52,291 nucleotides of DNA, from positions 1 to 52,291 of IMG/VR virus record IMGVR_UViG_3300033571_020326, one strand, 5' to 3'. Shown piece after piece: positions 10,126-39,918 of this stretch. This DNA is from a virus. Both the position numbers and the translations under genes were made by a program. The notes beneath the pieces are model-generated. The model was not told where the DNA came from. It made no database searches and was given only the letters and a program-made list of their open reading frames with translations. Position 1 is the first letter of the stretch. Every line of letters starts with the position of its first letter.

Positions 10126-10153
10126 TATTTATAGGTTTTTTTTTATTTTACAA
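10126..10153 (-). promoter_or_regulatory. Promoter before 107-aa gene (TTGTAA-N16-TAAATA; also TATAAATA)
   Basis: On the - strand TTGTAA (10148-10153) is followed after 16 nt by TAAATA (10126-10131), 9 nt before the ATG at 10116. The same bases read TATAAATA, so it may instead serve as a late promoter. The spacer is mostly A. Confidence 0.45.
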
Positions 10154-10895
10154 GAGCAGAAATTATATATTTAAGCTCTACATCATTATCATCTTTGTTT
10201 TGAAAAACAAAAACTTTATATTGATTGTTTATCCTAACTTTTACATCTGTGCGACATGTAGCAAGGTTCTTAAACACTTCGGTAGTTATGGGTATTCCTT
10301 CGGGTATGGGTTCTCCGACAAAATCATCACAGATATTAATAGTAATGTTATCAATGTTTTGCATTGTATAATCATTTAATTCTGCATAGACTTTTCCTTC
10401 TCTTGTAGAGAAGTAAATCTTCGATACATCTGAAGCAAAAGCATAACCAGCCATGATCTGCTTGATTTTACTATTGGTTATCGTGAACTCTGTATCGAAA
10501 TTAAGTTGTGCGATTTTATTTATGTTTATAGGACATTCCCTAACAACAGTATCATCCACAAGATGATATTTAAAATGGGTTTTTTCACCATCGTCCTGTT
10601 TGACGATACATTTAATGTTGTTTACATTATGTTCTATAGAAAATTCACCATCATTTCCAAGACAATCTAATCCTGAAAGGAGTTTCTTGATACTAATAAG
10701 ATTTAACCTCAAAGGCTCATTGTCGTTTTGTAGCTTTATCCTAGCATAGAGAACAACTGTATTATCGGAAGATGAACATATGGTAAATAATCCATCTTTA
10801 TCTGTTTTTAAAACACAACTTTCTGTAAGCCTGTTTACGGGCTTAAGAATCTTTTCTAAATATTCCTTTGGGATTTGTATGGATTTATTTTGCAT
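10143..10895 (-). CDS. 45: DNA polymerase sliding clamp (T4 gp45-like)
   Basis: Trimeric processivity clamp for polymerase and mobile activator of late transcription. The start is chosen at MQNKSIQIPKEYLEKILKPV because this ATG overlaps the stop of the upstream gene (ATGCAAAATAA) and begins with a typical clamp helix. Length is 250 aa, close to gp45 (228 aa). Two repeats of the clamp fold can be discerned, with an interdomain segment around residues 120-135 and strand-rich halves (SKIYFSTREGKVYAELNDY; KYKVFVFQNK-like C-terminal strands). Sequence similarity to T4 is weak, so the call relies on fold pattern, size and neighbours (SSB, polymerase, gp55). Confidence 0.7.
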   Translation of the reverse strand: MQNKSIQIPKEYLEKILKPVNRLTESCVLKTDKDGLFTICSSSDNTVVLYARIKLQNDNEPLRLNLISIKKLLSGLDCLGNDGEFSIEHNVNNIKCIVKQDDGEKTHFKYHLVDDTVVRECPININKIAQLNFDTEFTITNSKIKQIMAGYAFASDVSKIYFSTREGKVYAELNDYTMQNIDNITINICDDFVGEPIPEGIPITTEVFKNLATCRTDVKVRINNQYKVFVFQNKDDNDVELKYIISALVK

Positions 10896-11400
10896 GTTTA
10901 CCGGAAATATTTTGAGTTGTAATTGTTGCAAATACCTTTCCAAACATTCCGGTCATCTTAGTAAGATTGGTATTAATCTTCTCTAACTGACTCTTAATAA
11001 TCTTAATATCTTCACTGCTGATACCCACAGAAGTTTCCTGTGAATCGTTTCGTGGCTGTTGTTGCACTGTTTGAGAGACAACAACAGGTGTTCCAGAAGG
11101 AAGAGGAATTAGATCTGGCATTGAAGATGCGGGAATATTAGGACTTACGGGATCAGGAATAGCTGCCATTGCCTGTTTTAAAGAATCCTCTACTGCTTTT
11201 TGCATAAGAGTGTTAGTAGGCTCAAATGTATTTCTTGGTTGTGGCGCATTGCCTCCGTTAACCAACGGAGAAACAAAACTGCTCATGTTAATTTGGTTAA
11301 CTGGTCTACTGCTATTGACCATGTTCTTATCGACATGAGATAGGTTAGAACTAACCAATCCTGCCAACATTGCCACATCAAATGCTTCGCTTTTATTCAT
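10885..11400 (-). CDS. Hypothetical protein with Pro/Gln-rich linker and C-terminal coiled coil
   Basis: 171 aa, not recognised. The first 70 residues are low complexity. Residues 85-125 are rich in Pro, Ser and Gln, and residues about 130-155 (SSEDIKIIKSQLEKINTNLT) form a probable coiled coil. It sits between FolE2 and the clamp, starting 2 nt after folE2's stop and overlapping the clamp gene by 11 nt. This tight coupling suggests co-expression with replication proteins. It could be an adaptor with an oligomerising tail, but no function can be assigned. Confidence 0.65.
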   Translation of the reverse strand: MNKSEAFDVAMLAGLVSSNLSHVDKNMVNSSRPVNQINMSSFVSPLVNGGNAPQPRNTFEPTNTLMQKAVEDSLKQAMAAIPDPVSPNIPASSMPDLIPLPSGTPVVVSQTVQQQPRNDSQETSVGISSEDIKIIKSQLEKINTNLTKMTGMFGKVFATITTQNISGKHAK

Positions 11401-11402
11401 AA

Positions 11403-12230
11403 TTATTTAAGTTCCTTTCCTGCATTAATACTTGCCGTTGCAACACTAGTATGGATAGATTCATAATGATTTGCTTCGATCAAGTAATCTTTAACTATAT
11501 TACCTAAGTTTGAAACTAAGTCAATCGCAAGTTTACGAACAACATCTTCAACATATACAGGATGTTCATACATTTCCTCTGTGATATAAGATTCGTCAAG
11601 ATCTGAAATTATGTTATAAATTTTAGAAGACCCTGCTTTATCAATCAAATCAAAGAGAACATTGTGGATGGTTTCATCTGATTCATGTTCTACTGTAATA
11701 GTTGCAGAAGAAAGTTGACTATGTGCTCCATAATCACTTATTTCTTTCGATCTAGGACAGAGAGAAGTATAATAACCAGTGACAGAGGTGTAAAACCTCT
11801 TATTACCGTTTATGAGTTTTCCTGTATAAGATGCATTGCTCTCCACCCAAGACTCGAAACTAGAAACCGGAGAAATTTTCTTTTGCAGAAGAGTATATTC
11901 TACAACAACTTGTCCGTTTCTAGCTCCGAATTTATTTTCGATATGATCTAGGATATTGTTTACAAAGGCAGGAATGGTTCTTTCAGAATCTTTAAGTCCT
12001 TCAATCGCAGAGCGGTGTTGATTGATTAATGATCCTTTCATATCTTGAGTCATATCACAAGATACGCTAACCTTCCCTATTGTGGGAATTCCTTTTCCTT
12101 TGATTGCACTAGGAATCAGAAGAGGAATTACGATGTTCTTATATCCAATAGTAGGAACAAGATCCTTGGGAAAGGTATCCAGAATATTTCTGGAGTCTGG
12201 CAATTCCTCTTCTGATTTAATCCTTGGCAT
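11403..12230 (-). CDS. folE2: GTP cyclohydrolase I, FolE2 (type IB) family
   Basis: Would convert GTP to 7,8-dihydroneopterin triphosphate, the entry step to folates and to 7-deazaguanine bases. The start is at MPRIKSEEELPDS, 1 nt after the SSB stop. An upstream in-frame ATG lies inside SSB. Family signatures: PVSSFESW (about residue 130), LCPRSKEISDYGAHSQ (about 160-175), DLDESYITEEMYEHPVYVEDVVR (about 210-232) and NHYESIHTSVATAS (about 252-265). The Cys, the GAH His, the DE Glu and the ESIH His correspond to the metal site of type IB enzymes as I recall it. The usual CPCSK is CPRSK here. No other folate or queuosine gene is in the window, but thyX is. Confidence 0.85.
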   Translation of the reverse strand: MPRIKSEEELPDSRNILDTFPKDLVPTIGYKNIVIPLLIPSAIKGKGIPTIGKVSVSCDMTQDMKGSLINQHRSAIEGLKDSERTIPAFVNNILDHIENKFGARNGQVVVEYTLLQKKISPVSSFESWVESNASYTGKLINGNKRFYTSVTGYYTSLCPRSKEISDYGAHSQLSSATITVEHESDETIHNVLFDLIDKAGSSKIYNIISDLDESYITEEMYEHPVYVEDVVRKLAIDLVSNLGNIVKDYLIEANHYESIHTSVATASINAGKELK

Positions 12231-12231
12231 A

Positions 12232-13104
12232 TTAGAGATCCTTGAGGATATCGTTGATTTTATCTTCTTGGCTAGAGATAGAAGTATCATCAGATTCAAC
12301 CTCCGAGGATACAGCTACTTCCTTCTTTACGACAGGAGCAACATAATCATCCTCTTCCTCATCTCCGTAGTTATTATTTGCAGGTGTGGATTCTACCTCT
12401 TCACCGAGGAAGTGTACCTTGAGAAGCTTCTCAATCTCCTCGTAGCTCTTGTGCTCTTGGAGGGTTTCGAGATTCTTCGTAGCGGAATAAATCTCCTCTA
12501 CATCCTGAACACCTTCGAGGGGTGAAGGCGACATGAACTTAGAACTGACATAGGTAGGATAACCACCCTCGTTCTCCTCGACCTTAATTCTAAGGTTGCA
12601 TCCATTCTCAGAAAGATCAAAGATCTTTGCACCGAACTCATCAGCATCATCACCGCTGATTGCGTTTGAGATGACCTTGTAGAGTTGCTTTCCGAAGCGG
12701 AGAATCTTCACCTGACCCTGATTATCAGGATTGGTTGGATCCTTCACAACGTATACATTGGCAAGCCAATTCTCATTGCGCTTGATGGGACGAGTCTGTT
12801 CGATAGCTTCGTCGTTCTTGCTCTGGTAAACCTTGGAGCGATATTCATCGATAGGGCAACGCTCACCATAAGTCGTGGGGCAAAGCGTTGAAACAATCTG
12901 ATTGGTAATCACACTCTTCCAAAGATGGGAGAAGTAGTGATACATAGTACGCTCTGGGTTCTCCAGATTGGGGATAAGACGAACAACATAAGTGTTGCCC
13001 ATCTCCAGCTTCAGAATATCCTTGTAAGAGGAATTTTCTGTGTTTGTCTTCTTGTTGAGAGCCTCTTTGATCGACTCAAAGAGGTTGTTGGTGTATTTAC
13101 TCAT
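12232..13104 (-). CDS. 32: Single-stranded DNA-binding protein (T4 gp32-like)
   Basis: Coats ssDNA during replication and recombination. 290 aa (T4 gp32 is 301). The N-terminal basic part is followed by an OB-type core with a zinc site made by HYFSHLW (about residues 56-62) and CPTTYGERCPI (about 75-85), matching the His/Cys zinc subdomain of gp32. The tail from about residue 230 is strongly acidic (NYGDEEEDDY and SEVESDDTS), ending DKINDILKDL, as expected for the protein-interaction domain. The gene is visibly richer in G+C and in C/G-ending codons than its neighbours, consistent with high expression. It has its own promoter-like sequence upstream. Confidence 0.9.
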   Translation of the reverse strand: MSKYTNNLFESIKEALNKKTNTENSSYKDILKLEMGNTYVVRLIPNLENPERTMYHYFSHLWKSVITNQIVSTLCPTTYGERCPIDEYRSKVYQSKNDEAIEQTRPIKRNENWLANVYVVKDPTNPDNQGQVKILRFGKQLYKVISNAISGDDADEFGAKIFDLSENGCNLRIKVEENEGGYPTYVSSKFMSPSPLEGVQDVEEIYSATKNLETLQEHKSYEEIEKLLKVHFLGEEVESTPANNNYGDEEEDDYVAPVVKKEVAVSSEVESDDTSISSQEDKINDILKDL

Positions 13105-13114
13105 AGTGGTTATA

Positions 13115-13142
13115 ATAATAGCTACTTTTTCTGGGAATGCAA
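13115..13142 (-). promoter_or_regulatory. Promoter of SSB gene (TTGCAT-N16-TATTAT)
   Basis: On the - strand TTGCAT (13137-13142) and TATTAT (13115-13120) are separated by 16 nt. The ATG at 13104 is 10 nt beyond the -10 box, so the mRNA leader would be only a few bases. Confidence 0.5.
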
Positions 13143-13778
13143 CTCTTTATTTAAAAATTCTTGAATTTTTTTTGTTGCTTCCCGCACAATACTTTTAGTC
13201 TTGGGACTATTGTGGTAACGAGTCTTGAAAGAATCAAACTTTTCAAAGAAATCGTTAGTCCAGAGAATTCTTTCATCTTCGCTTAAATTTTTGAATTTGG
13301 ATACATTTCCTAATTCCATTAAGCAATAAGGATTAATGCTATGTTCTCTGTAATGTTGCATCCAAATAGGCATATTTCCTATTTTGAAAGAAATATAATT
13401 TTCCAATCCTATTTTGTTCTTAAGGCAGAACATGGCAATAAAGTGCAATCCATCTTTAATCTTGTCGATTTGTTTTTCCGGTGACTCATCCTCTTGCTTC
13501 TTCATGGCAAGAGAATATGTCTTGATTGCTGCTCTTGTTATGAAAAAATTTATCGGCTGTGGACGTTCGTTTGGATGTAAAATATTCGGAGCATTAAAAA
13601 ACATATCAGGGGAAATATGTTTAAATTTATTAAAAAATGCACTAAGTTTCTTTAATGAAAGAATTGTCGTGGGTGATAGATCAGAAAAATCTTTTCTGTA
13701 TTTGAATGGTTGTCCTTGACGGTATGCACGTAAGAAGGAATTGTATATGTTTTCCTCTTGTTTTGTAATTTTATTCAC
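13122..13778 (-). CDS. Candidate helicase loader (position and size of T4 gp59)
   Basis: 218 aa, all-helical and basic, closely matching T4 gp59 (217 aa) in length. It sits immediately upstream of the SSB gene and downstream of a 100-aa gene, reproducing the T4 order 33-59-32. The C-terminal half (PIWMQHYREHSINPYCLMELG) has a loose resemblance to the second helical domain of gp59. gp59 loads the gp41 helicase onto gp32-covered forks, and both partners are encoded here. Primary sequence evidence is weak, so the assignment is mainly by synteny and size. Confidence 0.5.
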   Translation of the reverse strand: MNKITKQEENIYNSFLRAYRQGQPFKYRKDFSDLSPTTILSLKKLSAFFNKFKHISPDMFFNAPNILHPNERPQPINFFITRAAIKTYSLAMKKQEDESPEKQIDKIKDGLHFIAMFCLKNKIGLENYISFKIGNMPIWMQHYREHSINPYCLMELGNVSKFKNLSEDERILWTNDFFEKFDSFKTRYHNSPKTKSIVREATKKIQEFLNKELHSQKK

Positions 13779-13780
13779 GT

Positions 13781-14083
13781 TTACGTTTTGGATTGTTTGT
13801 TGTGTTTAGATCTAAATATTTTTTTATAGATATTCGGAGTACTGCCAAGATACGCACGAATTATAGTTTGTAAATTGTTTTCTCCCAAAAGATCAAAATA
13901 AATTTTCTGTGTCTTATTATCTTCTATCAGAAGTTTTAGAAAATTCAAGAAATTAAATTTCTTCTTCTTTGAAATGCAGACAAAAGACCCAAACTTTAGA
14001 GTTATCTCTTCAAATTCAGATAAATCAAATACATTTGAAGGATTTACAATGTCTTGAACTTGTTGGGAAGATGTTATTATCAT
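13781..14083 (-). CDS. Hypothetical small protein in gp33 position
   Basis: 100 aa. It lies directly upstream of the gp59-sized gene (2 nt gap) and overlaps the DHH gene by 4 nt (ATGA). T4 gene 33, the late-transcription co-activator of 112 aa, has the equivalent place. However, the C terminus here is basic (FRSKHNKQSKT) and lacks the hydrophobic-acidic clamp-binding tip expected of gp33, so that identity is doubtful. The middle is helical and hydrophobic (FNFLNFLKLLIEDN). It is a real gene by coupling, with function unknown. Confidence 0.6.
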   Translation of the reverse strand: MIITSSQQVQDIVNPSNVFDLSEFEEITLKFGSFVCISKKKKFNFLNFLKLLIEDNKTQKIYFDLLGENNLQTIIRAYLGSTPNIYKKIFRSKHNKQSKT

Positions 14084-14973
14084 ATAGGCTTTAAGTTTTT
14101 TGTAACTTCCATAAACAGAGGAGTTATGACTCCAGCAGCAGCATTTGGATGACCTCCACCGTTACAAATTTTTTCAGCAAATGCTCCTACATCGATTGGA
14201 TCTTCTTTGGAACATTGGCGTATGGAAACTTTTTCACTCTTAATATTGATCCAGAAGAATATATCTGGATTATGTCTTTTTATTAAAATCTCCATCACCT
14301 GTGGAGTTGTTTTTTCTACCATTGCAGCACAGATTTTCTTACTTTTGCCACCGAAATTAATAGTGCCCTTGTATATGGGAATGTTTTGTGATTCTTTATC
14401 CGCTTCTCTTTTTATGAAATTTATCGCTCTTCTCTGATGTTCTGATATCGGTTTGAAACCGTTATAATATTCTTTTATAAATCCAGAAAAATTGTTTTGA
14501 AATTCTGTCCAAAAAAGAATGTTCAAATCGCTGGAATCTGGAAGTTCTAATCTATTACAATCAAAATCATCAGCCAATGCTATTAAAGTTTTCTGTTCTT
14601 TTGTAGCATTGATTGTATCTTTGAACAGTTTATATGTTAATAAAGCATTTGAACTATATTCCTTGTAGAGAACTTTAGCCTTTTCAAATTTGTCTAAAAA
14701 TCTTTCAGAAGATTTATGATGATCTATTATGGTTATGTTGGGATTATTAAGCTCTGGTAAGAACTCTTCTCTTAAACCTAAATCCAATACATATACATTA
14801 GAAAGATTATGTGTATTTGCTATTTGCGTTTTTAACTTATCTATCTGCATATTAGAGATAGAAGTGTAATGAAAGGATGTTCCTTCTGGTTTACTCCACA
14901 TAAAAGCGAGTAAACTAACAGCACCATCCAAATCATTATGAGTAAAAATGTGATAGCAGTTTGACATTGTCAT
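14080..14973 (-). CDS. DHH/DHHA1-family phosphoesterase
   Basis: 297-aa manganese-dependent phosphoesterase of the RecJ/nano-RNase superfamily. Motifs in order: HNDLDGAVS (residues 11-19), YVLDLGL (about 61-67), IIDHHKSS (about 82-89) and ALADDFDC (about 130-137). The DHHA1 domain has CNGGGHPNAAAG near residue 275. Members act as 5'-3' ssDNA exonucleases, oligoribonucleases or cyclic-dinucleotide phosphodiesterases. The size without extra domains fits the short (NrnA-like) group. It occupies the stretch upstream of 33-59-32 where T4 encodes RNase H and DsbA, so a role in primer or flap removal is an attractive but unproven idea. Confidence 0.85.
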   Translation of the reverse strand: MTMSNCYHIFTHNDLDGAVSLLAFMWSKPEGTSFHYTSISNMQIDKLKTQIANTHNLSNVYVLDLGLREEFLPELNNPNITIIDHHKSSERFLDKFEKAKVLYKEYSSNALLTYKLFKDTINATKEQKTLIALADDFDCNRLELPDSSDLNILFWTEFQNNFSGFIKEYYNGFKPISEHQRRAINFIKREADKESQNIPIYKGTINFGGKSKKICAAMVEKTTPQVMEILIKRHNPDIFFWINIKSEKVSIRQCSKEDPIDVGAFAEKICNGGGHPNAAAGVITPLFMEVTKNLKPI

Positions 14974-14991
14974 TTATTTACTAACAAGTGT

Positions 14992-16377
14992 TCAAAAGTC
15001 ATCATCTCCATCCAAATTTTCAATTATATTTAATGTATCTGCTATTGTATGCACTCCTGTTTTCAAGGGATTACTATTTGCCGCATAAGAAATTGAAACA
15101 TTATCAGGATCTTTGAGTGTTAATGTAGGATAATCGATCTCAAGAACAGTATTAATACCTCTTGGTCCGAATCTATTCTTCGATATACCCATATGGATAA
15201 TACCAAGTTCTATGTCGCCATCTTCTGACCAAATAGAAAACTGTGCATCAGCAGTATGGGCAAGACCCATAGATTCACTCGTCGTTTCCAAGCCCGGATT
15301 TGCTTCGTTATATGCACTCCTATTGGTTTGGGTTGCTGATATTACTGGACAACTGAACTTATAACTCAATGCTCTTACATATTCTGTAATCTTTTTAATT
15401 GATTCATAGGAATTCATTCCCTTTTCTGGTGGAGCAATCAAGTTTAGATAATCAATTACTATTGCATCTGGCTTCACTCCTGATCTGACAAGTTTTTCAA
15501 TATACACTTTGATCTGGAGTGGAGTTATGGACTGAGGAGGGAATTCTTTAATAATTAATTTTGAATCCTTATGATTAACTTTATATGAATTTATCTCCCG
15601 TTTCAGGGGTTCTATATTCATATTCAAATCTCTCATAGCAATCCTAGAAAGCTGAGAACTGATTCTACTGGCATATGTTTGTTCTGACATTTCAAGAGAA
15701 ATTAAAAGAACAGTCTTGTTTTGATTTAAAATATTCGTAGCAATGTTTCCCAAGAAAATAGATTTTCCTACGTTGGTGACACCATAAAACACATACAAAG
15801 CTCTACCTTCGGATAAAAATCCTCCACCGATGTTTTGATCAAGCCATTTCCAGCCAGTAGATATTCTTTTTGAAACTTTTTGAAGCTCCTCGCAATGTTT
15901 ATCTAAGTTTTCAAGATAATCAAAACCGATATTCTCTATGAGAGAAATTCCACAAGCACTTTCAAAATCTTCCAAGATTTTAGTAGTATTGATATTTCCG
16001 GATTGTACTTCCACATTAGTTCTTATGACAGTGGAAAGTACGGCTTTCTCTCTAAGAAAGCGTTCGGTGTTTTTCAGCAAAACATCCTTATCATAGGTTT
16101 TATCAATATCAGAAAAACTCAAAGCAACATTTTTAAGAGCATCCCTTTTTTCCTTATCTACAAGATGCGTCTTAAGCTCTGTTATGTTTGGTATCTTACT
16201 ATATGCATTAAAAAAATTCGTAAGTGACTCGAATACAATTTTAATGTTCTTATCCTTAAAATAAGAAGGCTTTATGTGTTCAATGATATTTTCAAGATAA
16301 AGAGGGTCGGTTATGGCATTGTATACCATAACCTTCTCGAAAAGATCAAAATCTATTGGGATAGATGTATGAGACAT
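14992..16377 (-). CDS. 41: Replicative DNA helicase (T4 gp41, DnaB family)
   Basis: Hexameric 5'-3' fork helicase. 461 aa (T4 gp41 is 475). The N-terminal domain is helical. The RecA-like domain begins with STGWKWLDQNIGGG-type substrate sequence (about 168-182), Walker A YGVTNVGKS (about 196-204), LLISLEMSE (about 222-230), Walker B AIVIDYLNLI (about 303-312) and the Gln-containing SATQTNRS (about 345). The extreme C terminus ENLDGDDDF is acidic with a terminal Phe. The ATG overlaps the uvsX stop by 1 nt (TAATG), so translation is coupled. Confidence 0.92.
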   Translation of the reverse strand: MSHTSIPIDFDLFEKVMVYNAITDPLYLENIIEHIKPSYFKDKNIKIVFESLTNFFNAYSKIPNITELKTHLVDKEKRDALKNVALSFSDIDKTYDKDVLLKNTERFLREKAVLSTVIRTNVEVQSGNINTTKILEDFESACGISLIENIGFDYLENLDKHCEELQKVSKRISTGWKWLDQNIGGGFLSEGRALYVFYGVTNVGKSIFLGNIATNILNQNKTVLLISLEMSEQTYASRISSQLSRIAMRDLNMNIEPLKREINSYKVNHKDSKLIIKEFPPQSITPLQIKVYIEKLVRSGVKPDAIVIDYLNLIAPPEKGMNSYESIKKITEYVRALSYKFSCPVISATQTNRSAYNEANPGLETTSESMGLAHTADAQFSIWSEDGDIELGIIHMGISKNRFGPRGINTVLEIDYPTLTLKDPDNVSISYAANSNPLKTGVHTIADTLNIIENLDGDDDF

Positions 16378-17480
16378 TAGTTACTCTCGTTTTTAAAGGT
16401 AAGCTTTTCTCTCAGTTTTGCCTCTAATGCTGGAAGAAACTTCTCCCAAACAGTGTCATCATCCTTCCAATCCTTAAAGAATCCAAGAGTCTCGCCATTG
16501 AATACATAACGATGTCCTGCTTTTTCAAGGACTCCATATCCTTCTGCCATTTCAAGCAATCCAGAGTATTTATTTAAACCTGTACGGAAATTTAAATACA
16601 TTTCTGTTTCTAGATATGGAGGAACAAACCTATTTTTTGTGGTAAGTGCCCTCAGTGTTAGACCATTAATTCCCTTCGAGAGAGGTGTGGTCTCCGAATT
16701 GGAGTCTTTGTTTTTACTATCATCTGCCTTTTCGGTTTTCTTTGCCATCTGAACGATGACAGATGCCATATAAAGAGGCCCAGAACCACCTGCTTGCTTT
16801 TTGATAGCGGTTGGATGTAATTGTGAAGGATCATCATAGATATGATTGGTGAATACCACAGGACAATTTGCCTTTGCTGCTGAATGCGTAATTGCTCTCA
16901 TCATACTCTTCAGAGCCTTGGCACGGTTTCCCATATCAGGGGTATCTGTTCCTTCCTCAATCTTTTTCTTCTCTTGAGCAGTAATTAGATTACCAAGTGA
17001 ATCGATTACTATAAGAATTTTTCCCTGCAAACCCTTCTCTACTACGGTTCCAAGGAACTTAACAATTTGATTACGGCACTGCTCTGTGAGTTCCGTAGGA
17101 GCATGTTTAATCTTTGCAGGATCACAGCCAAGACGCTTTGCTGTATCTTCATCCAAAGCACCTTCAGTATCAAAGTATGCTACATGCATACCTCTCTTCT
17201 GTGCATTTGCCATGATTTTATTAGCCATCAGGGTTTTACCACAGGATTCAGGTCCAATGAATCCGGTTAGTCTTCCCATAGGGACACCGCCATACAAAGA
17301 ACCAGAAATAATAGCATTGAGAGCCATCGATCCGGTATCAATCCAATCTTTGACGGTTGAAAGGCTGTTTTCATCTAAGAAAGTAGCCTCTGGGTTCATT
17401 TCATCAAGGACATCAAAAGCATCTTTAATGTCTGGTGTTCCTTGAATTATCTCTTCTGTATCAGTTTTCTTTTTAGCCAT
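16377..17480 (-). CDS. uvsX: Recombinase UvsX (RecA family)
   Basis: ATP-dependent strand-exchange protein for recombination-dependent replication. 367 aa when started at MAKKKTDTEE, preferred over an in-frame ATG six codons upstream because it sits 6 nt after a strong -10 box. Motifs: Walker A GPESCGKT (about 75-82), YFDTEGALDE (about 103-112, catalytic Glu), Walker B ILIVIDSLGNL (about 155-165), and FTNHIYDDPSQ with the Gly-rich DNA loop KKQAGGSG (about 208-230). UvsY, UvsW, gp46 and gp47 are all encoded nearby, giving a complete T4-type recombination set. Confidence 0.93.
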   Translation of the reverse strand: MAKKKTDTEEIIQGTPDIKDAFDVLDEMNPEATFLDENSLSTVKDWIDTGSMALNAIISGSLYGGVPMGRLTGFIGPESCGKTLMANKIMANAQKRGMHVAYFDTEGALDEDTAKRLGCDPAKIKHAPTELTEQCRNQIVKFLGTVVEKGLQGKILIVIDSLGNLITAQEKKKIEEGTDTPDMGNRAKALKSMMRAITHSAAKANCPVVFTNHIYDDPSQLHPTAIKKQAGGSGPLYMASVIVQMAKKTEKADDSKNKDSNSETTPLSKGINGLTLRALTTKNRFVPPYLETEMYLNFRTGLNKYSGLLEMAEGYGVLEKAGHRYVFNGETLGFFKDWKDDDTVWEKFLPALEAKLREKLTFKNESN

Positions 17481-17486
17481 ATACCT

Positions 17487-17514
17487 ATAATAAACCAAAA
17501 CTCCAGAATGTCAA
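17487..17514 (-). promoter_or_regulatory. Promoter of uvsX (TTGACA-N16-TATTAT), overlapping hairpin
   Basis: On the - strand a perfect TTGACA (17509-17514) is followed after 16 nt by TATTAT (17487-17492). The uvsX ATG is only 6 nt further, so transcription would start at or next to the A of ATG. The -35 hexamer is formed by the loop and distal arm of the inverted repeat at 17499-17529. Confidence 0.7.
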
Positions 17515-17529
17515 AGACATTCTGGAGTT
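17499..17529 (-). terminator. Perfect 14-bp stem-loop, probable terminator of the 137-aa gene
   Basis: AACTCCAGAATGTC and its exact complement flank a 3-nt loop (AAA on the + strand, TTT on the - strand). In the - direction the stem is followed by TTGGTTTATT, a fair U-rich tract, and it lies about 30 nt after the stop of the highly expressed-looking gene at 17561. It also contains the -35 box of uvsX. In the + direction the stem is followed by TGCTGGTTTC and a run of eight T, so termination there is also possible. Confidence 0.7.
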
Positions 17530-17560
17530 TGCTGGTTTCTTTTTTTTACTGATTACGAAA

Positions 17561-17974
17561 TTACTCGTCAAAAAGATTAATTACTGCATTTCCCTGTGCA
17601 GGGGCTCCCGTTACCTGACCAGCGGCGGGAGGAACAAAGATGTTGCTCTGATTGAACATCTGATTGTACTGAGCCTGAAGACGGAAATCGAATGATTCGA
17701 TGCTTGTCTCTGTGATGGAAGCCTTCTTATAGAAGAAGGTTACGTCCTCGGTCTTGTCTGCCAAGAACTCCCTGAAGAAAATAGGGAGTAATTGAACGGA
17801 CATTCTTCCCGACTCGTCTTGTGGAACGACATGAAGAACAACTGGATTCTTTAATGCAAGAATCGAATCAGTGGTTTTCTCGGTGTTAGCAACACCGACT
17901 ATGGTGCGTCCAACGGCATCGAGGAATGTGATTATTTTTGGGGTTGTGGTTTCTGTGGATGTAGTATCGCTCAT
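17561..17974 (-). CDS. Conserved small protein, high-expression codon use, possible clamp-binding tip
   Basis: 137 aa, function unknown. The core FLDAVGRTIVGVAN...LALKNPVVLHVVP...VQLLPIFFREFL alternates short strands in a way that suggests an Sm/SH3-like barrel and resembles, from memory, a conserved hypothetical of marine T4-like phages. The last residues NAVINLFDE form a hydrophobic-acidic tip similar to the polymerase C terminus (DLFDLFS), hinting at clamp binding. The gene is richer in G+C than its neighbours, has its own promoter and is followed by a strong hairpin, all signs of an abundant, individually transcribed protein. Confidence 0.75.
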   Translation of the reverse strand: MSDTTSTETTTPKIITFLDAVGRTIVGVANTEKTTDSILALKNPVVLHVVPQDESGRMSVQLLPIFFREFLADKTEDVTFFYKKASITETSIESFDFRLQAQYNQMFNQSNIFVPPAAGQVTGAPAQGNAVINLFDE

Positions 17975-17983
17975 ATGTTTATT

Positions 17984-18011
17984 ATTTTACTATAGATATT
18001 AGATTAGTCAA
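17984..18011 (-). promoter_or_regulatory. Promoter of 137-aa gene (TTGACT-N16-TAAAAT)
   Basis: On the - strand TTGACT (18006-18011) and TAAAAT (17984-17989) are 16 nt apart, and the ATG at 17974 is 9 nt beyond. The -35 box overlaps the end of thyX. Confidence 0.6.
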
Positions 18012-18657
18012 GCGGCATTTTCCAATTTAATGCTTCGCTTGTATTGGGAAAAAGGTTAAATAATGTTTGTTTGATATCATTTGCTATCATTCTATGCTCC
18101 AACTGAGTATCTTCTTGTGATCTTAGCTCTACATAATGGATCCAGTTTCTGAGATTTCCTGTCATATATAGTGTTGTTTGTGTACAAAGTGGGAGAACCA
18201 TCCTAGCACATTCTTTTGCAGCACCTCTTTTTATTAATTTTTCATATAATTTAACACTTTCCAGCATATGATTTACAATTTCCGAATTTTCATCTTCGGA
18301 TAATTCTAAAACATTCTCACTAGATTGCCTATTTTTCTCTGCTTTTTCTCTTATTTCAAAAGATTCTAGATTATTAATCTCAGAATATCTCTGGCTGAAC
18401 TCCTGAAAACAAAAACTACGATGTCTTAGTATCTGTGCCGCAATTGCTCTGGATGTTACTATCTCAAATGTCAAAGAAACTTGTTCAAAGGGACTCCAAT
18501 GTTTATGTTGGATTAGATATTTTAACAACTTTGGTGCTGTTTCTGTGTTTAATTGATTTGACGGGTTAGAAACTCGTGCGATATAACTGATTAAATCTTC
18601 TGCTGTGAGGATTCCTTCAATCATTGGTTGAGTAATGCTTATTAAACGTGTGTTCAT
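18004..18657 (-). CDS. thyX: Flavin-dependent thymidylate synthase
   Basis: Makes dTMP from dUMP using methylenetetrahydrofolate, FAD and NADPH. 217 aa, usual for ThyX. The signature RHRSFCFQEFSQRYSE (about residues 78-93) satisfies the RHR-x7-S motif that binds dUMP and FAD, and HWSPFEQ (about 52-58) and the later region with RMVLPLCTQTTLY (about 152-164) are also typical. It lies between the polymerase and a small abundant protein, with its own promoter. It replaces the ThyA-type enzyme (td) of T4 and links to the FolE2 gene through folate supply. Confidence 0.95.
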   Translation of the reverse strand: MNTRLISITQPMIEGILTAEDLISYIARVSNPSNQLNTETAPKLLKYLIQHKHWSPFEQVSLTFEIVTSRAIAAQILRHRSFCFQEFSQRYSEINNLESFEIREKAEKNRQSSENVLELSEDENSEIVNHMLESVKLYEKLIKRGAAKECARMVLPLCTQTTLYMTGNLRNWIHYVELRSQEDTQLEHRMIANDIKQTLFNLFPNTSEALNWKMPLD

Positions 18658-18663
18658 ATGAAT

Positions 18664-18691
18664 ATTATATATGTTTATGAGAATAAATCAA
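18664..18691 (-). promoter_or_regulatory. Promoter of thyX (TTGATT-N16-TATAAT)
   Basis: On the - strand TTGATT (18686-18691) and a perfect TATAAT (18664-18669) are 16 nt apart, and the ATG at 18657 follows the -10 box by 6 nt. The -35 box is inside the end of the polymerase gene. Confidence 0.6.
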
Positions 18692-21245: not shown

Positions 21246-21251
21246 TACACA

Positions 21252-21279
21252 ATACTACCACGAAAACATTAACCGTCAA
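21252..21279 (-). promoter_or_regulatory. Promoter of DNA polymerase gene (TTGACG-N16-TAGTAT)
   Basis: On the - strand TTGACG (21274-21279) and TAGTAT (21252-21257) are 16 nt apart, with the ATG at 21245 only 6 nt after the -10 box. The geometry is identical to the uvsX and thyX promoters. Confidence 0.6.
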
Positions 21280-22591: not shown

Positions 22592-22598
22592 ATTTTAT

Positions 22599-22627
22599 AT
22601 ATTAATACTATATGGTTAATAATTCAA
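22599..22627 (-). promoter_or_regulatory. Promoter of glycosyltransferase gene (TTGAAT-N17-TAATAT)
   Basis: On the - strand TTGAAT (22622-22627) and TAATAT (22599-22604) are 17 nt apart, with the ATG at 22591 7 nt downstream. The -35 box overlaps the gp46 stop region. Confidence 0.5.
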
Positions 22628-24438: not shown

Positions 24439-24466
24439 AGTGTATATTATTTTTTAAAAAAAGCAA
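24439..24466 (-). promoter_or_regulatory. Promoter of gp46 (TTGCTT-N16-TACACT)
   Basis: On the - strand TTGCTT (24461-24466) and TACACT (24439-24444) are 16 nt apart and the GTG start at 24432 is 6 nt beyond. The -10 box is the weakest of the set, but spacing matches the others. Confidence 0.45.
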
Positions 24467-26007: not shown

Positions 26008-26030
26008 ATTTTTATTTACTATCTATTTGT

Positions 26031-26759: not shown

Positions 26760-26760
26760 A

Positions 26761-28035: not shown

Positions 28036-28038
28036 AAT

Positions 28039-28584
28039 TTATGTGGTAGATGATGGATAGTAATAGTAGATTGGCCCCTTGATATAAACTTCAGTTTTAA
28101 GCTTGCCTTTAAGTTTTTCTGAAAAGTTTTTATCTTCCTGCCAAGAGATATTATCGAACATAGTATCTAATGCTATTTCACGTTTTATTGGGTTGAGATG
28201 GTTTGGACAACGATAATAGATATCGTCTTTTTCAAACCAATCTTGATATTGTAATGAATGTATAAACTTTTTCGGTCCAATCTTTTTTTGTGTTATAATT
28301 CCCTCTATTCCAACACAATCTGGATTGTCTCTTATTGCAGTAAGGATTCCATGAACATAAAAAGGCGAAACCATATCGTCATCATCTACAAAGACAACAT
28401 AATCACCTTTTGCTGCTCTTAATAAATCGTTTCTCTTTTCTCCAATGCTTCTTTCTCTGTTATCACAGACTGCAAGCATTTCTACTTCTGCGTTTGACTG
28501 TGCTTTTAGAACTCTTGCCAGATTTCTAAACACACCTTCTCTTTCTGCCATTGTTACTGTCAAAATTGATAACCGTTTGCTCAT
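28039..28584 (-). CDS. Short family 2 glycosyltransferase
   Basis: 181 aa. The N terminus LSILTVTMAEREGVFRNLARVL and the segment DNRERSIGEKRNDLLRAAKGDYVVFVDDDDMVS form a textbook GT2 donor-binding half with V-D-D-D-D (about residues 71-75), followed by HLNPIKREIALD and ISWQEDKNFSE, the likely catalytic-base region. It resembles domain 2 of the preceding two-domain protein (SKRQALL versus EKRNDLL), suggesting duplication. It has its own promoter in the 31-nt gap upstream. Confidence 0.85.
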   Translation of the reverse strand: MSKRLSILTVTMAEREGVFRNLARVLKAQSNAEVEMLAVCDNRERSIGEKRNDLLRAAKGDYVVFVDDDDMVSPFYVHGILTAIRDNPDCVGIEGIITQKKIGPKKFIHSLQYQDWFEKDDIYYRCPNHLNPIKREIALDTMFDNISWQEDKNFSEKLKGKLKTEVYIKGPIYYYYPSSTT

Positions 28585-28591
28585 TGTTAAT

Positions 28592-28619
28592 ATTTTATAT
28601 TAGATCTAAAAAAATTCAA
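28592..28619 (-). promoter_or_regulatory. Promoter inside the glycosyltransferase island (TTGAAT-N16-TAAAAT)
   Basis: On the - strand TTGAAT (28614-28619) and TAAAAT (28592-28597) are 16 nt apart, and the ATG at 28584 is 7 nt after the -10 box. It divides the island into two transcription units. Confidence 0.6.
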
Positions 28620-31625: not shown

Positions 31626-32364
31626 ATGTTTCCTGTATTTTAGACAAGCTTTCCAATAACTGTTCTTTAGTAGATCCTACAGGATCGTTTTGAGATGGAA
31701 TATACTTGTGTAGATGTAAAAAGTAACCATATGAAAGACCTACACTCCTATGTGGATCTGGAAGATCTTTGAAACCTATTTTTTGTATTTTATTATTGGT
31801 CTTCTTCAAACCTTTACCAATTGTAGGATTAAAATGTGCTGGTGGATATATTCCTTTATTTCTTAACTTTATTATATAGTCCAATACATCTAAATCTTTA
31901 CTATTAAAAAATCTTTCATCAAAGAAACCGTTGTTTTTGACAACACCTGACAGCATAAACATAAAATCACTATTGATTTCTGGTGAAACACTCAAGGTAA
32001 TGTTTTCATTATCATCTTCTAGATCTATACTATTACTACCCGAACCAAGAATGAACCAAGTACCGAATGTTTCGCCCAATTTTATTGCTTTTTGGAAAAT
32101 TTCAGAATCCTCTACTACTTGATTAGAACCTAAAAGGAAAAAATATTTATAACCTTTGATTCTAAACTGAGAAATCAACCAATTTCTTAAGGTTGCAAAT
32201 GAAACTTCACCATATTTTCTATAGTTGTCATTAACCATCTTGTTATTTGTAGCAGATGCTACCAATAAATTGGGTTTTAATGCTTCTGGTATAGAAGCAT
32301 AACAATGTTCTAAATCATCTTGTTCGTATACGTCTAGTATTCCTATTCCTATTTCTTCGTTCAT
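31612..32364 (-). CDS. Divergent glycosyltransferase paralogue, catalytic motif lost
   Basis: 250 aa, related to the two downstream paralogues: IGIGILDVYEQDDLEHCYASI at the start, YKYFFLLGSNQVVEDSEIFQKA in place of HIFLMEDDVEISDANVF, and FFDERFFNSKDLDVLDYIIKLRNKGIYPPAHF in place of the DEQFYNALEHVD block. The E-D-D donor motif has become G-S-N and the E-H-x-D motif D-L-D-V-L-D, so transferase activity is doubtful. It may act as a glycan-binding or regulatory subunit. It is the first island gene after gp47, overlapping it by 4 nt. Confidence 0.7.
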   Translation of the reverse strand: MNEEIGIGILDVYEQDDLEHCYASIPEALKPNLLVASATNNKMVNDNYRKYGEVSFATLRNWLISQFRIKGYKYFFLLGSNQVVEDSEIFQKAIKLGETFGTWFILGSGSNSIDLEDDNENITLSVSPEINSDFMFMLSGVVKNNGFFDERFFNSKDLDVLDYIIKLRNKGIYPPAHFNPTIGKGLKKTNNKIQKIGFKDLPDPHRSVGLSYGYFLHLHKYIPSQNDPVGSTKEQLLESLSKIQETYAKK

Positions 32365-33420: not shown

Positions 33421-34074
33421 TTATTCGCCTTTGTATGTTTTTGTTCTGTTATTCTTTACCATGTTGTTATAATTTTCTGAAAATGCCAAATATTCAGTCT
33501 GATATCTTTCATGAGTTTCGTGCATATGCTTTTCTTTTTTGATCCTGTTTCTAAAAGCATTGAATGCAATTCTTGTAAAATAAGAAAATGGGTTGGTTCC
33601 TTTGTCATGACTATATTTTTTTGACATAAGTGCTTTAAACATTCGGATAACACCATCACCTACCATTTCTTCTCTATATGAATAGTTTATGAAATTGGAA
33701 GCATAGCTAAGTTTATGTGCAATCTTGCTAACCATATTAGCCAGTTCGTCGGTTAAGATTCCTGTCTGATAATACTTTAGAATTTGTTGATCAAACTCTT
33801 TGGGATCTACATAAAATTCTGTCTTGTTTGCTTTTTTTCCACGCTTCTTGGGTTCGTCGGGTTTTACTTCTTTTTTAGCTTCGACAATAACTTCATCAGG
33901 ATCGATTTCGTCTAGAACTTCAATATCATCATCTTCATCAATGATATCATCATCTTCCTCCACTTCATCAAAATCCAAGTCGATTCCTAATATTTCGGCT
34001 TCTTCTCTTGAATAGTTTATATTGTCTTTGTTAAGACTTGTTTTCTTACGATATTTCTTTTTCGGTGTAGTCAT
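33421..34074 (-). CDS. 55: Late-transcription sigma factor gp55
   Basis: Sigma-70-related factor that directs host RNA polymerase to late promoters (TATAAATA type in T4). 217 aa (T4 gp55 is 185). The first about 90 residues are an extra acidic stretch (FDEVEEDDDIIDEDDDIEVL) and a Lys-rich linker. The conserved part begins YVDPKEFDQQILKYYQTG, then NFINYSYREEMVGDGVIRMFKAL and KGTNPFSYFTRIAFNAFRNRIKKEK, a sigma region 2-like segment. The C terminus NNRTKTYKGE lacks the hydrophobic clamp-binding tip known in T4. Located next to gp47, as in T4 relatives. Confidence 0.85.
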   Translation of the reverse strand: MTTPKKKYRKKTSLNKDNINYSREEAEILGIDLDFDEVEEDDDIIDEDDDIEVLDEIDPDEVIVEAKKEVKPDEPKKRGKKANKTEFYVDPKEFDQQILKYYQTGILTDELANMVSKIAHKLSYASNFINYSYREEMVGDGVIRMFKALMSKKYSHDKGTNPFSYFTRIAFNAFRNRIKKEKHMHETHERYQTEYLAFSENYNNMVKNNRTKTYKGE

Positions 34075-35859: not shown

Positions 35860-35874
35860 AAGTATGTAATAAGA

Positions 35875-35902
35875 ATTATAATATATGTTTAATAAATTTC
35901 AA
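35875..35902 (-). promoter_or_regulatory. Promoter of the uvsY operon (TTGAAA-N16-TATAAT) in divergent region
   Basis: On the - strand TTGAAA (35897-35902) and TATAAT (35875-35880) are 16 nt apart, with the ATG at 35859 15 nt beyond. The -10 lies in ATTATAAT (35875-35882), which is palindromic and reads TATAAT on the + strand too, 2 nt before the divergent gene's ATG. Confidence 0.6.
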
Positions 35903-36642: not shown

Positions 36643-37197
36643 ATGGCTGATACATCTTGCATATATTGTGGTTCTTCAACATACGGAAAACCATGTCTTT
36701 ATTCCCCAACTAACACCCATGTACACATGGATGAACCGGGAAAATGCATATATTGCGGATCGCCTTATCTTGGTTCTGGATGTTTATATAATCCTTATGG
36801 GAATGTTCATGTAAGAGGACCTGAATTCTTAAATGCAGCAGCAATAAAAACCGAAAAAGCATCAGTTTTAACTTATATTTTCAATGTTGCTAGTAAAATT
36901 TTAACAGAAAATACGTTATATAAATCACCTTTGGACAGAGTTTATAAGAGAGCAGCTTCAATAATTGCTTCTATAACCGAACCCTTACTTGAAACCTTTT
37001 CTTTACAAGAAACTCCAACTTATGGAAAGCTTTCAAAGCAAGAATTGATAAAAACTGTAGAATATAAACAAAAATTCTCAAGACAGTTGCATGAATTTTC
37101 TAAATTAGTATCAGAAGCATCCCTAGAATTACCACAAGAAATAGTTGAAAAGGCTTTGGTGGATGCTATAATGGATATTAATGTCCGAGAAAAATAA
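36643..37197 (+). CDS. Protein with two tandem CxxC zinc-ribbon repeats
   Basis: 184 aa, function unknown. Residues 6-28 (CIYCGSSTYGKPCLYSPTNT plus HVH) and residues 35-56 (CIYCGSPYLGSGCLYNPYGN plus VHV) are near-identical repeats, each with C-x2-C, a third Cys and a His, enough to bind zinc. The remainder is helical and includes a basic/hydrophobic stretch (about 75-115) and an acidic C terminus. It overlaps the next gene by 17 nt. Tandem minimal ribbons suggest nucleic-acid or protein binding. Confidence 0.75.
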   Translation: MADTSCIYCGSSTYGKPCLYSPTNTHVHMDEPGKCIYCGSPYLGSGCLYNPYGNVHVRGPEFLNAAAIKTEKASVLTYIFNVASKILTENTLYKSPLDRVYKRAASIIASITEPLLETFSLQETPTYGKLSKQELIKTVEYKQKFSRQLHEFSKLVSEASLELPQEIVEKALVDAIMDINVREK

Positions 37198-37663
37198 AAT
37201 TAAAGATTTCTTAATATATTATATCTCAGAAAGGATTATAATATTCCCATTATATGAATATTTGCCAGTTATAGCAAATAATATTATAAGAAATTTGAAT
37301 GAATGGGACTTGTTAGATGGGAAACTTATTACTCAGAGGGAAAAATATTTTAAATTTTTTTTAGAAAAAGAACTTGACACGATTCTAAACTTGTTTATAA
37401 TACTTTTTAAGGATCTGAACGTTAAAATATTAACAATATATAAAGATTCTAGTCTATCTGATGAATATTCTGAAGTATTTATAAATTATAAAAGCTTTAG
37501 TAATACAGTAAAGAACCTATATAAGAAGAAAACAAAGTATTTTATAGAATTAAAAGATGATAATTTATTATTTTTAAAAACAGAGGGAATTTATAAAGGT
37601 TTAAGAGTAGGAGTACCAAATGGTGATGATTTAGAATTTTTCATAAAGTACATTGACAAATAA
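37181..37663 (+). CDS. Hypothetical protein, 160 aa
   Basis: Not recognised. Rich in Ile, Leu, Lys and aromatic residues. The N-terminal half contains hydrophobic helical stretches (IIIFPLYEYLPVIANNII; DTILNLFIILFKDLNVKILTIY), while the C-terminal part has an EYSEVFINY and FIELKDDNLLFLKTEG pattern of short strands. It overlaps the zinc-ribbon gene by 17 nt. Its codon use is extremely AT-rich. A perfect-consensus sigma-70 promoter lies inside the gene at 37374-37401. Confidence 0.6.
   Translation: MSEKNKIKDFLIYYISERIIIFPLYEYLPVIANNIIRNLNEWDLLDGKLITQREKYFKFFLEKELDTILNLFIILFKDLNVKILTIYKDSSLSDEYSEVFINYKSFSNTVKNLYKKKTKYFIELKDDNLLFLKTEGIYKGLRVGVPNGDDLEFFIKYIDK
37374..37401 (+). promoter_or_regulatory. 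Consensus promoter inside the 160-aa gene (TTGACA-N16-TATAAT)
   Basis: Exact TTGACA (37374-37379) and exact TATAAT (37396-37401) with a 16-nt spacer. It sits within the coding sequence, about 300 nt before the next gene, which has a second identical promoter. It may be a chance match in AT-rich DNA, but both hexamers are perfect. Confidence 0.45.
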
Positions 37664-37680: not shown

Positions 37681-37703
37681 TTTTTAAAGGTAAATAATAA
37701 AAG

Positions 37704-38084
37704 ATGAGTAAATTTTTAACAATTTTAAAAAGAGTAATTTCTGAAGAATTAGGAGATGACCAACAGGAAGCTATTTTAGGAAAACAAGAAGCACCAAACG
37801 CAGATAGCTCCGTTGCTCCTGTCGAAACATCGGATTCTTCTTCGGCTTTGCCAGACAAAGAAGATGTTAATGGTATAGATCTTATTAAATACAAAACACT
37901 TCTTAAATCTTTACAAGATTCTTTGGTTAAATCTGTTAAAAATGATAAAGATGAATACACTATATCGAAGTTAGATATAGATTCAAAAAATACCAGAGAA
38001 GAGCTTCAACCAATTGAAGATACTTTGATGGCATTCTTACATGACAAAGAAGTTCCAAGTAATTCTGATTGGTCTGATACATAA
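37704..38084 (+). CDS. Hypothetical acidic protein, 126 aa
   Basis: Not recognised. N-terminal FLTILKRVISEELG helix, a disordered Ser/Asp/Glu-rich stretch (about 20-52), a Lys-rich helix (LIKYKTLLKSLQDSLVKSVK) and an acidic C terminus. The design (amphipathic helix followed by flexible acidic linker) is similar to the 273-aa protein further downstream (LAENIIYTIEEG), and both may be head-internal or scaffolding-like. Driven by a strong consensus promoter. Confidence 0.65.
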   Translation: MSKFLTILKRVISEELGDDQQEAILGKQEAPNADSSVAPVETSDSSSALPDKEDVNGIDLIKYKTLLKSLQDSLVKSVKNDKDEYTISKLDIDSKNTREELQPIEDTLMAFLHDKEVPSNSDWSDT

Positions 38085-38088
38085 AAAC

Positions 38089-38116
38089 TTGCTTTAATAG
38101 ACAATTCTGCTAAAAT
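38089..38116 (+). promoter_or_regulatory. Promoter of the 87-aa gene (TTGCTT-N16-TAAAAT)
   Basis: TTGCTT (38089-38094) and TAAAAT (38111-38116) are 16 nt apart, and the ATG at 38124 is 7 nt beyond the -10 box, predicting a leaderless transcript. Confidence 0.6.
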
Positions 38117-38123: not shown

Positions 38124-38387
38124 ATGAAAACATACTCTATTAAAAATCTAACAGAAGAACAACTTAGATTAGTTTTAGAATCTTTACTCGTAGCTTCTAC
38201 AGCACAAGTCAATGCTTCATGGTATGCAGAAGATTACGAAAAGATGTTTAACCTTGCTTCTGACATCAGAAAAGATAATTCCAATATTCTTTTAGAAAAC
38301 ACTTTCATCCTCAAGGATGATTTAGCTGATGGTTTTTCACAAAAACTTTTAGATTATTTCCCCGAAATTGAAGTAACTCCCTTTTAA
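38124..38387 (+). CDS. Hypothetical protein, 87 aa
   Basis: Not recognised. Short, helical and acidic (LTEEQLRLVLESLLVAST; DYEKMFNLASDIRKD; KLLDYFPEIEVTPF). It has its own promoter and lies 3 nt before the kinase-like gene, so they are probably co-transcribed. No membrane segment or metal motif. Confidence 0.65.
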   Translation: MKTYSIKNLTEEQLRLVLESLLVASTAQVNASWYAEDYEKMFNLASDIRKDNSNILLENTFILKDDLADGFSQKLLDYFPEIEVTPF

Positions 38388-39032: not shown

Positions 39033-39053
39033 GATAAATAAATTATATAATTT

Positions 39054-39875
39054 ATGAAATTTGATATTTTAGCCGAAAACATTATTTACACAATCGAAGA
39101 AGGACGCTTCAAAAAAGAAGAAAAATTCTCCAATATTGAAGTTAATGGTGAAGAACTCCAAAATCTTTTAAATTCTGGTGCTCTCGATTCACATTTAGAA
39201 AATCTCGCAAATAAAGCAAGATATTCAAATCTTTCAGCAGAACAACTCAAGCAGATTATATCTGAAATTACAGAAGAAATTAAAATATCACAACCTTCTT
39301 CATTTGAAGAATTAAAAGATTCTATTCAGACAGTAGCAGATTCTGTTTATTCTGACAAAGGTTCCAAACGCAAGACTTTAGTCGATAGACTTACCAAGTC
39401 TGTTGGAAATATCATTTTAAGTCCTTCACTTGGCGTTGTTTCACAGGGAGAAATTGTAAGAAAATCAGAAAATAAACCCGAATCAAACAACCTCAAGGCT
39501 CACGAAATCGAACTTATTAATTTCATCAATCAATCAGAGGAACCAACCACATACGAACAGGCAGTTGAACACATTGCTCATAATTTTGCTGTGGAAACTG
39601 AAGATGCAGAACAGATTGTTAAAAAAATAATGGCTAGTGGAGCTATTACAAGAGAAGGAGACTTCTTAGCGGTTAACGATGAATATGTTGCTTCAGAAGA
39701 AGACAAAGAACCTTCATCTGAAGAAGAAATAGAAAAGGCAATCAGAAAAGATAATCAAGATTACGAAGGCGATGAAGAAGAATACGAAAATCCTTTAAGT
39801 TTTGACAGAGAAGTAGATGATACTTACAGAAAAACAAGAGGTTCGGATTCGGATTATTACGACTCAAATTTATAA
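39054..39875 (+). CDS. Hypothetical acidic protein with winged-helix-like segment
   Basis: 273 aa, not recognised. Residues 145-205 (HEIELINFINQ...TYEQAVEHIAHNF...VKKIMASGAITREGDFLAV) look like a small winged helix: helix, turn, helix and a beta wing. The C-terminal about 60 residues are extremely acidic (EEDKEPSSEEEIEKA and DYEGDEEEYENP), which could mimic DNA or bind a basic partner. TATAAT lies 2 nt before the ATG without a clear -35 box. Confidence 0.65.
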   Translation: MKFDILAENIIYTIEEGRFKKEEKFSNIEVNGEELQNLLNSGALDSHLENLANKARYSNLSAEQLKQIISEITEEIKISQPSSFEELKDSIQTVADSVYSDKGSKRKTLVDRLTKSVGNIILSPSLGVVSQGEIVRKSENKPESNNLKAHEIELINFINQSEEPTTYEQAVEHIAHNFAVETEDAEQIVKKIMASGAITREGDFLAVNDEYVASEEDKEPSSEEEIEKAIRKDNQDYEGDEEEYENPLSFDREVDDTYRKTRGSDSDYYDSNL

Positions 39876-39881
39876 TTCCCA

Positions 39882-39910
39882 TTGACAAGGTGATATTCCC
39901 CCCTTATTAT
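39882..39910 (+). promoter_or_regulatory. Promoter of primase gene (TTGACA-N17-TATTAT)
   Basis: Exact TTGACA (39882-39887) and TATTAT (39905-39910), 17 nt apart, with the ATG at 39919 8 nt beyond. The G-rich AGGGGAG touching the ATG looks like a Shine-Dalgarno core, but it has no spacing to the start. CCCCT (39900-39904) and AGGGG (39912-39916) form a 5-bp stem across the -10 box. Confidence 0.7.
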
Positions 39911-39918
39911 TAGGGGAG

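Follow-up and report, generated by a model that had tools for sequence, protein, structure and literature searches.

Background

T4-like phages are the textbook case of translation led by Shine-Dalgarno (SD) sequences. In bacteria, leaderless genes have been described in which TANNNT lies some 10-12 bp upstream of the start codon (Zheng et al. 2011, PMC3160421; mycobacteria, PMC4633059); the -10 box sets +1 on the start codon, ATG and GTG are both accepted at +1 in mycobacteria (PMC4633059) and no SD sequence is needed. A route by which 70S ribosomes bind leaderless mRNAs has been reviewed, together with the lambda cI mRNA, a phage mRNA that is translated without a leader (PMC9031893), and, according to one paper, transcripts without a leader are frequent in phages (PMC5312081). 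Here we report that in the linear IMG/VR virus record IMGVR_UViG_3300033571_020326 (52,291 nucleotides (nt), GC content ~32%; this whole stretch is referred to as the window), which encodes a set of replication and late genes of the T4 type, and in its metagenomic relatives, promoters are positioned at a short fixed distance from start codons. The promoter-proximal genes of this phage and its clade very probably give mRNAs that are leaderless or have leaders of only a few nt, with many downstream genes translated by coupling. Bacterial leaderless genes share the placement of the -10 box, the acceptance of ATG and GTG and the dispensability of SD sequences, but are a fraction of a cellular genome, whereas here it is the predominant layout of promoter-led genes, SD motifs are near chance frequency and a second, phage-type sigma factor would act with the same spacing. 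Lambda cI, by comparison, is a single model lysogeny gene, whereas the arrangement described here extends over the genome of a large T4-like phage.

Late transcription in T4 uses gp55 and TATAAATA boxes, and the window likewise has a gp55 homologue and boxes with a TAAATA core. In T4, however, the late core is present 4-10 nt before the ATG at none of 40 starts in the stretch tested, and SD motifs precede 60% of starts; in the clade, the core is TAAATA or TAAGTA with variable first bases. The closest named relatives by gp43, at about 30% identity, are Exo-T4/Kyanoviridae phages (HTVC008M, S-PM2 and Melnitz), but these have kept SD sequences (strongly in HTVC008M and Melnitz, more weakly in S-PM2) and have no comparable spacing. 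A marine T4-like genome, TARA_ERS488589_N000003 (180 kb, 32% GC, predicted Bacteroidetes host, nearest to Exo-T4 phages; PMC7198788), compared here by its description only, is similar in size and GC content and could be a member of this clade; the describing paper uses neither the word promoter nor the word leaderless. In the literature searched, no T4-like clade was reported to use leaderless starts generally and with two sigma factors. Leaderless bacterial genes and the TANNNT spacing are thus already known, and what appears to be new is their general use in such a clade.

Promoter position relative to start codons

The initial annotation of the window proposed a fixed spacing of -35 box, -10 box and start codon that should exceed the frequency in shuffled sequence. 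The result is strongly positive, both in the window and in nine relatives. These form two groups by gp43 identity to the window, one at 55-80% and the other at ~42%, here called freshwater and marine, presumed habitats that we take from the sample numbering; stretches of seven freshwater and two marine (G021 and G020) genomes, partly or largely covered, were sampled. Counts are for ATG starts from a uniform open reading frame (ORF) caller that have 15 nt or more of free space upstream, with dinucleotide shuffles as the null, and the gap is the number of nt between box and start codon. At gaps of 4-10, the window has the sigma-70 geometry at 8 of 29 starts (0.3 in shuffled sequence, maximum 2), the late core TAAATA/TAAGTA at 5 of 29 (0.5, maximum 3) and one or the other at 13 of 29 (0.9, maximum 2). 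For the window and freshwater relatives together, the corresponding counts are 62 (4.3, maximum 11), 95 (9.9, maximum 19) and 156 (14.2, maximum 25) of 424 starts, with the sigma-70 gap peaking at 6 (27 starts), then 7 (12), and the late-core gap at 6 (36 starts), then 5 (19). In the marine relatives, one or the other is present at 56 of 146 starts (4.3, maximum 7), and G021 and G020 have the same positioning of both. The spacing is absent from T4, HTVC008M, S-PM2 and Melnitz (either class at 3 of 121 starts versus 2.4 shuffled, maximum 6), which bears out the proposal that this is not the T4 mode.

The most sharply positioned hexamers before the 424 starts are TAAATA, TAAGTA and TATAAT, all beginning at -12, and TTGACA at -34. 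In promoter numbering, the last base of a sigma-70 -10 box is -7, so that with a gap of 6 the first base of the start codon is +1. A -10-like TANNNT about 10-12 bp before the start, as in bacterial leaderless genes, thus occurs above chance and without an SD sequence, and the promoter geometry is a property of the clade.

Simple counting of promoter-like sites across window positions 8600-28500 gave 84 versus 88.9 expected, with no excess by a method that has no power here, and the TATAAATA octamer is in no clear excess in intergenic DNA, whereas the TAAATA/TAAGTA core is strongly positioned. As the overall number of sites is not enriched, the signal is entirely positional, relative to start codons. 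A region-wide frequency no higher than in shuffled sequence is what would be expected if the true promoters were further upstream, the mRNAs had leaders and the boxes near the ATG had arisen by chance in A/T-rich DNA. The positional excess over both dinucleotide shuffles and internal ATGs is, however, extreme, and some starts have a terminator ending 15-23 nt upstream, with little room for a leader; such an explanation is scarcely credible. The sigma-70 geometry at gaps of 6-7 precedes 5.9% of start ATGs versus 0.17% of internal ATGs (35x; p ~1e-39), and the late core at gaps of 5-7 precedes 12.3% versus 0.13%, a comparison that includes tightly packed genes, whose TAA stop codons may add to the late count.

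The two sigma-70 boxes were also evaluated independently, by selecting on the -10 box only and then seeking TTG 16-18 nt upstream. In the window, TTG is present with this spacer at 8 of 14 boxes with a gap of 5-8 versus 3 of 28 at other gaps; the corresponding values are 17/31 versus 7/89 in G006 and 12/19 versus 9/70 in G021, with contrasts similar to the window in G003, G001 and G020. The test fell short of significance in G002 and G009, and was not significant in any of eight control phages.

GTG starts resemble ATG starts in their geometry, TTG starts do not, and a pyrimidine is present at -1 at 129 of 177 (73%) promoter-led starts versus 271 of 499 (54%) coupled starts (p 1.3e-5). These features bear on whether the mRNAs instead have leaders of 2-10 nt and are translated by non-SD initiation without being truly leaderless. 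Gaps of 8-10 nt at several starts (13104, 17974, 39919) and a spread of late boxes across gaps of 5-9 and beyond would fit such short leaders, but the peaks across the clade are at 6 for the sigma-70 boxes and at 5-6 for the late ones, and the use of RTG rather than TTG together with a pyrimidine at -1 is expected if transcription begins at the A or G of the start codon. We consider such short leaders unlikely, although a serious contender, and transcription from the start codon itself better fits these peaks.

Misplacement of the start codons, with true starts downstream behind SD leaders, would be consistent with the SD-like 4-mers present before 17 of 142 downstream in-frame ATG or GTG codons in promoter-led genes. 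This frequency is, however, not significantly above that for deep internal codons (184/2246, p=0.12), and homology begins at residue 1-3 in 64 of 66 relatives for gp43, 23 of 23 for thyX and 56 of 56 for gp46, making misplaced starts highly improbable. Divergent start codons are a median of 49 bp apart in the clade (n=100) versus 166 bp in control phages (n=23). Two pairs in the window, at 4456-4479 (starts 4455 and 4480) and 35860-35884, are only 24-25 bp apart.

Transcription and translation initiation in the clade

In the arrangement that these data suggest, a sigma-70-type promoter (TTGA..-N16/17-TAnnnT) would drive early and middle genes and a similarly placed gp55-type late promoter (core TAAATA/TAAGTA) the late genes. 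From the sequences, we infer a transcription start that coincides with the first base of the start codon or lies no more than about 4 nt from it; an SD sequence would then be unnecessary, with 70S ribosomes presumably binding the 5′-terminal AUG or GUG. Many downstream genes overlap the preceding gene or directly adjoin it, and ribosomes would get to them through coupling or reinitiation; for some genes a terminator ending just before the promoter would stop upstream transcripts before they could provide a leader. The initial annotation suggested leaderless translation as the normal mode for early and middle genes. The positional data argue for leaderless initiation but not for that restriction, as the gp55-type late promoters share the spacing, and as a normal mode it is best limited to promoter-proximal genes, many downstream genes being read as coupled. 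With coupled starts taken as those on the same strand at -40 to 14 nt from the preceding gene, the 64 starts of the window divide into 27 coupled, 16 promoter-led, one with an SD motif and 20 unexplained.

If correct, this would make a large uncultured clade a natural genome-scale system in which to study leaderless translation, and would sharpen the prediction of gene starts and promoters in metagenomic phages, as the start codon would predict the promoter and vice versa. It would also set a limit on the host, which must have ribosomes that are efficient on leaderless mRNAs, and suggests that the starts of transcription and translation are able to evolve together as a unit, whether the sigma factor is of host type or from the phage.

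Conservation and a terminator upstream of uvsX

Upstream of gp43, the spacing of TTG, -10 box and start codon persists in most of the freshwater and marine relatives compared, although the intervening DNA has diverged. The geometry is present in about half of these relatives for gp46, many with a GTG start, and in about half for the primase, whereas for the gp32-like gene it is conserved in only part of the relatives and for thyX in the closer relatives only (L058, L101, L109, L135). In L013, L019 and L021, which do not have the geometry upstream of thyX, SD-like AAGGAGAATATTTT precedes the ATG, and it is possible that thyX has switched its mode of initiation between relatives.

A terminator hairpin with a perfect 15-bp stem, followed by a T-rich tail, is located upstream of uvsX (17498..17530, minus strand; minimum free energy for the fold of this region -27.9 kcal/mol, z -7.1 in the window). 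Its loop and 3′ arm contain the -35 box TTGACA, and the order of hairpin with TTTGAC (-35) in the loop region, T-run, -10 box and ATG is found in nine relatives including the window. In an alignment of the seven sequences whose stems have no gaps, 105 of 105 pair cells are paired, and 9 of the 15 pairs are compensatory, with changes on both sides. An upstream transcript stopping at this hairpin could not supply a leader, because the hairpin ends 17 nt before the ATG. The hairpin is a near-perfect palindrome, and on the plus strand it is likewise scored as a terminator. In L123 (2865-3185, minus strand), L099 (14966, plus strand) and L156 (13844, plus strand), comparable terminators come before a late box and an ATG.

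An A/T-rich motif before the ATG could also be a translation-enhancing context, rather than a promoter, as in Bacteroidota that lack SD sequences. Flavobacterium johnsoniae is reported to use Kozak-like sequences in the absence of SD sequences (PMC6847099), and the Bacteroidota phages phi38:1 and FCL-2 are likewise without them. A translation context, however, gives no reason to expect a TTG 16-18 nt 5′ of the motif or a terminator hairpin immediately preceding it, and phi38:1, FCL-2 and crAss001 do not have the geometry. This reading is therefore very unlikely.

Shine-Dalgarno sequences and the major capsid gene

Four-base SD motifs are present at 0 of 29 free starts in the window and at fractions of 0-0.09 in the relatives versus 0.02-0.06 in shuffled sequence. 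The corresponding values are 0.60 versus 0.16 in T4, 0.52 versus 0.20 in HTVC008M, 0.52 versus 0.22 in Melnitz and 0.24 versus 0.11 in S-PM2. Five-base motifs gave much the same result, with a slight excess in some relatives. That SD sequences are missing almost everywhere, as first noted, is correct for the window but must be qualified for the gp23 major capsid gene of five relatives.

Several observations weigh against a leaderless arrangement. The gp23 gene has AAAGGA, AGGAGG or TAGGAG 8-17 nt before its ATG in L104 (4152-5624, minus strand), L133 (4545-6020, plus), L117 (14979-16442, plus), L147 (1198-2676, plus) and L150 (8752-10323, plus). About a third of the window starts (20 of 64) fall, under strict patterns, in neither the promoter-led nor the coupled class. 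Gaps of 8-10 nt would leave leaders of 1-4 nt rather than none, and the promoter positions at thyX, gp32 and uvsX are not kept in every relative, being absent from more distant ones. Homologous starts among relatives are not fully independent, and TAAATA may coincide with a stop codon in tightly packed genes, which the requirement for at least 15 nt of free space avoids in the main counts.

Given the gp23 motifs, the host ribosomes probably retain a working anti-SD. In four of the five relatives the free space upstream of gp23 is 62-87 nt and, by eye, some of these leaders may form a hairpin. Taken together, a tentative picture, which we put forward as possible rather than probable, is of a family-level clade in lakes and sea in which leaderless initiation is the default for promoter-proximal genes under two sigma factors, some promoters are fused to terminators, which precludes a leader, and an SD leader is kept mainly for the major capsid gene, two modes that could be regulated separately. 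Some members of the clade also encode a bS21-like ribosomal protein (L142 1453-1650, minus strand, in freshwater G006; L148 1495-1689, plus strand, in marine G021). In bacterial ribosomes, bS21 is located near the anti-SD, and a phage homologue could influence the mode of initiation.

Promoters at individual genes of the window

All listed positions were compared base by base with the sequence. TTGxxx-N16/17-TAxxxT had been proposed 6-10 nt before eleven starts, and was confirmed at ten of these. On the minus strand, the promoters are TTGCAT-N16-TATTAT (13115..13142; gap 10 to the ATG of the gp32-like single-stranded DNA-binding protein (SSB) gene, 12232-13104), TTGACA-N16-TATTAT (17487..17514; gap 6 to the ATG at 17480 of uvsX, 16377-17480), TTGACT-N16-TAAAAT (17984..18011; gap 9 to the ATG of ORF 17561-17974), TTGATT-N16-TATAAT (18664..18691; gap 6 to the ATG of thyX, 18004-18657), TTGACG-N16-TAGTAT (21252..21279; gap 6 to the ATG of the gp43 DNA polymerase gene, 18675-21245), TTGAAT-N17-TAATAT (22599..22627; gap 7 to the ATG of a glycosyltransferase gene, 21269-22591), TTGCTT-N16-TACACT (24439..24466; gap 6 to the GTG of gp46, 22624-24432) and TTGAAT-N16-TAAAAT (28592..28619; gap 7 to the ATG of a glycosyltransferase gene, 28039-28584). 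On the plus strand, TTGCTT-N16-TAAAAT (38089..38116) has a gap of 7 to the ATG of ORF 38124-38387, and TTGACA-N17-TATTAT (39882..39910) a gap of 8 to the ATG of the primase gene (39919-40875). Two promoter-like sequences are newly recognized, each with a gap of 8 to an ATG: TTGAAT-N17-TAATAT (4464..4492, minus strand) before ORF 3847-4455, and TTGAAA-N16-TATAAT (37145..37172, plus strand), within the preceding ORF, before ORF 37181-37663.

The eleventh start, at 10116, instead has a late-type box TATAAATA (10126..10133, minus strand) 9 nt before the ATG of ORF 9793-10116; the sequence CTATAAATA is a T4-type late box 9 nt 5′ of this ATG, and six orthologues of the ORF have TAAATA 5-12 nt 5′ of the ATG. 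The same octamer TATAAATA (6583..6590, plus strand) has a gap of 10 to the ATG of ORF 6601-8679, in a place that is not constant across all orthologues. The late-type core TAAATA is positioned, on the plus strand, with a gap of 7 to the ATG of ORF 37704-38084 (37691..37696), 6 to the GTG of ORF 45914-46606 (45902..45907) and 6 to the ATG of ORF 47146-50370 (47134..47139). These late-type boxes would be expected to be read by the gp55-like late sigma factor (33421..34074, minus strand; match to the late sigma family phrog_234, E 1.8e-24), a relative of which is present in 15 of 15 related records tested. No gp33 co-activator or gp45 clamp was identified in the PHROGs and Pfam scans of the window proteins, which included no search aimed at either.

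Host, relatives and gene content

A host in the Patescibacteria was considered, but the assignment failed: scanning genomes with gp43 gave one 24%-identical match in a Patescibacteria metagenome-assembled genome, and no clear member of the clade was found in 192 Patescibacteria genomes. Pooled Patescibacteria starts have mild SD use and a weak geometry signal (6/127 versus 0.7 shuffled, maximum 3), and in a comparison of bS21 proteins the nearest matches conflict. For some aquatic T4-like genomes, the predicted host is a member of the Bacteroidota (PMC7198788, PMC13037479), which would explain the missing SD sequences. The Bacteroidota-type promoter TTG-N-TAnnTTTG is, however, not enriched intergenically (3 versus 6.9 expected in G003, 5 versus 7.0 in G006 and 5 versus 3.4 in G021), whereas it is in crAss001, the positive control (12 versus 1.4 expected), and the promoter geometry of the clade is missing from phi38:1 and FCL-2, which are phages of Bacteroidota.

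Membership of the Far-T4/RM378 group is unsupported by the comparison with RM378, which covers gp43 and gp41: gp43 is 20% identical to RM378 versus 30% to Exo-T4, and gp41 23% versus 30-31%. The gp43 of the named phages Melnitz, S-CAM1 and HTVC008M is ~30% identical to that of the window, and a megablast search with window positions 10000-34000 found no phage relative. No tRNA genes were found in the window; the sampled stretches have 10 in G008 and about 19 in G006 (L132, L123-L126). The replication genes of the window are those for gp43, gp46, the gp32-like SSB, ThyX, primase, gp41, UvsX, gp47, UvsW and a UvsY-like protein. Between gp46 and gp47 (24494-32364), glycosyltransferase-like and other genes lie in a row.

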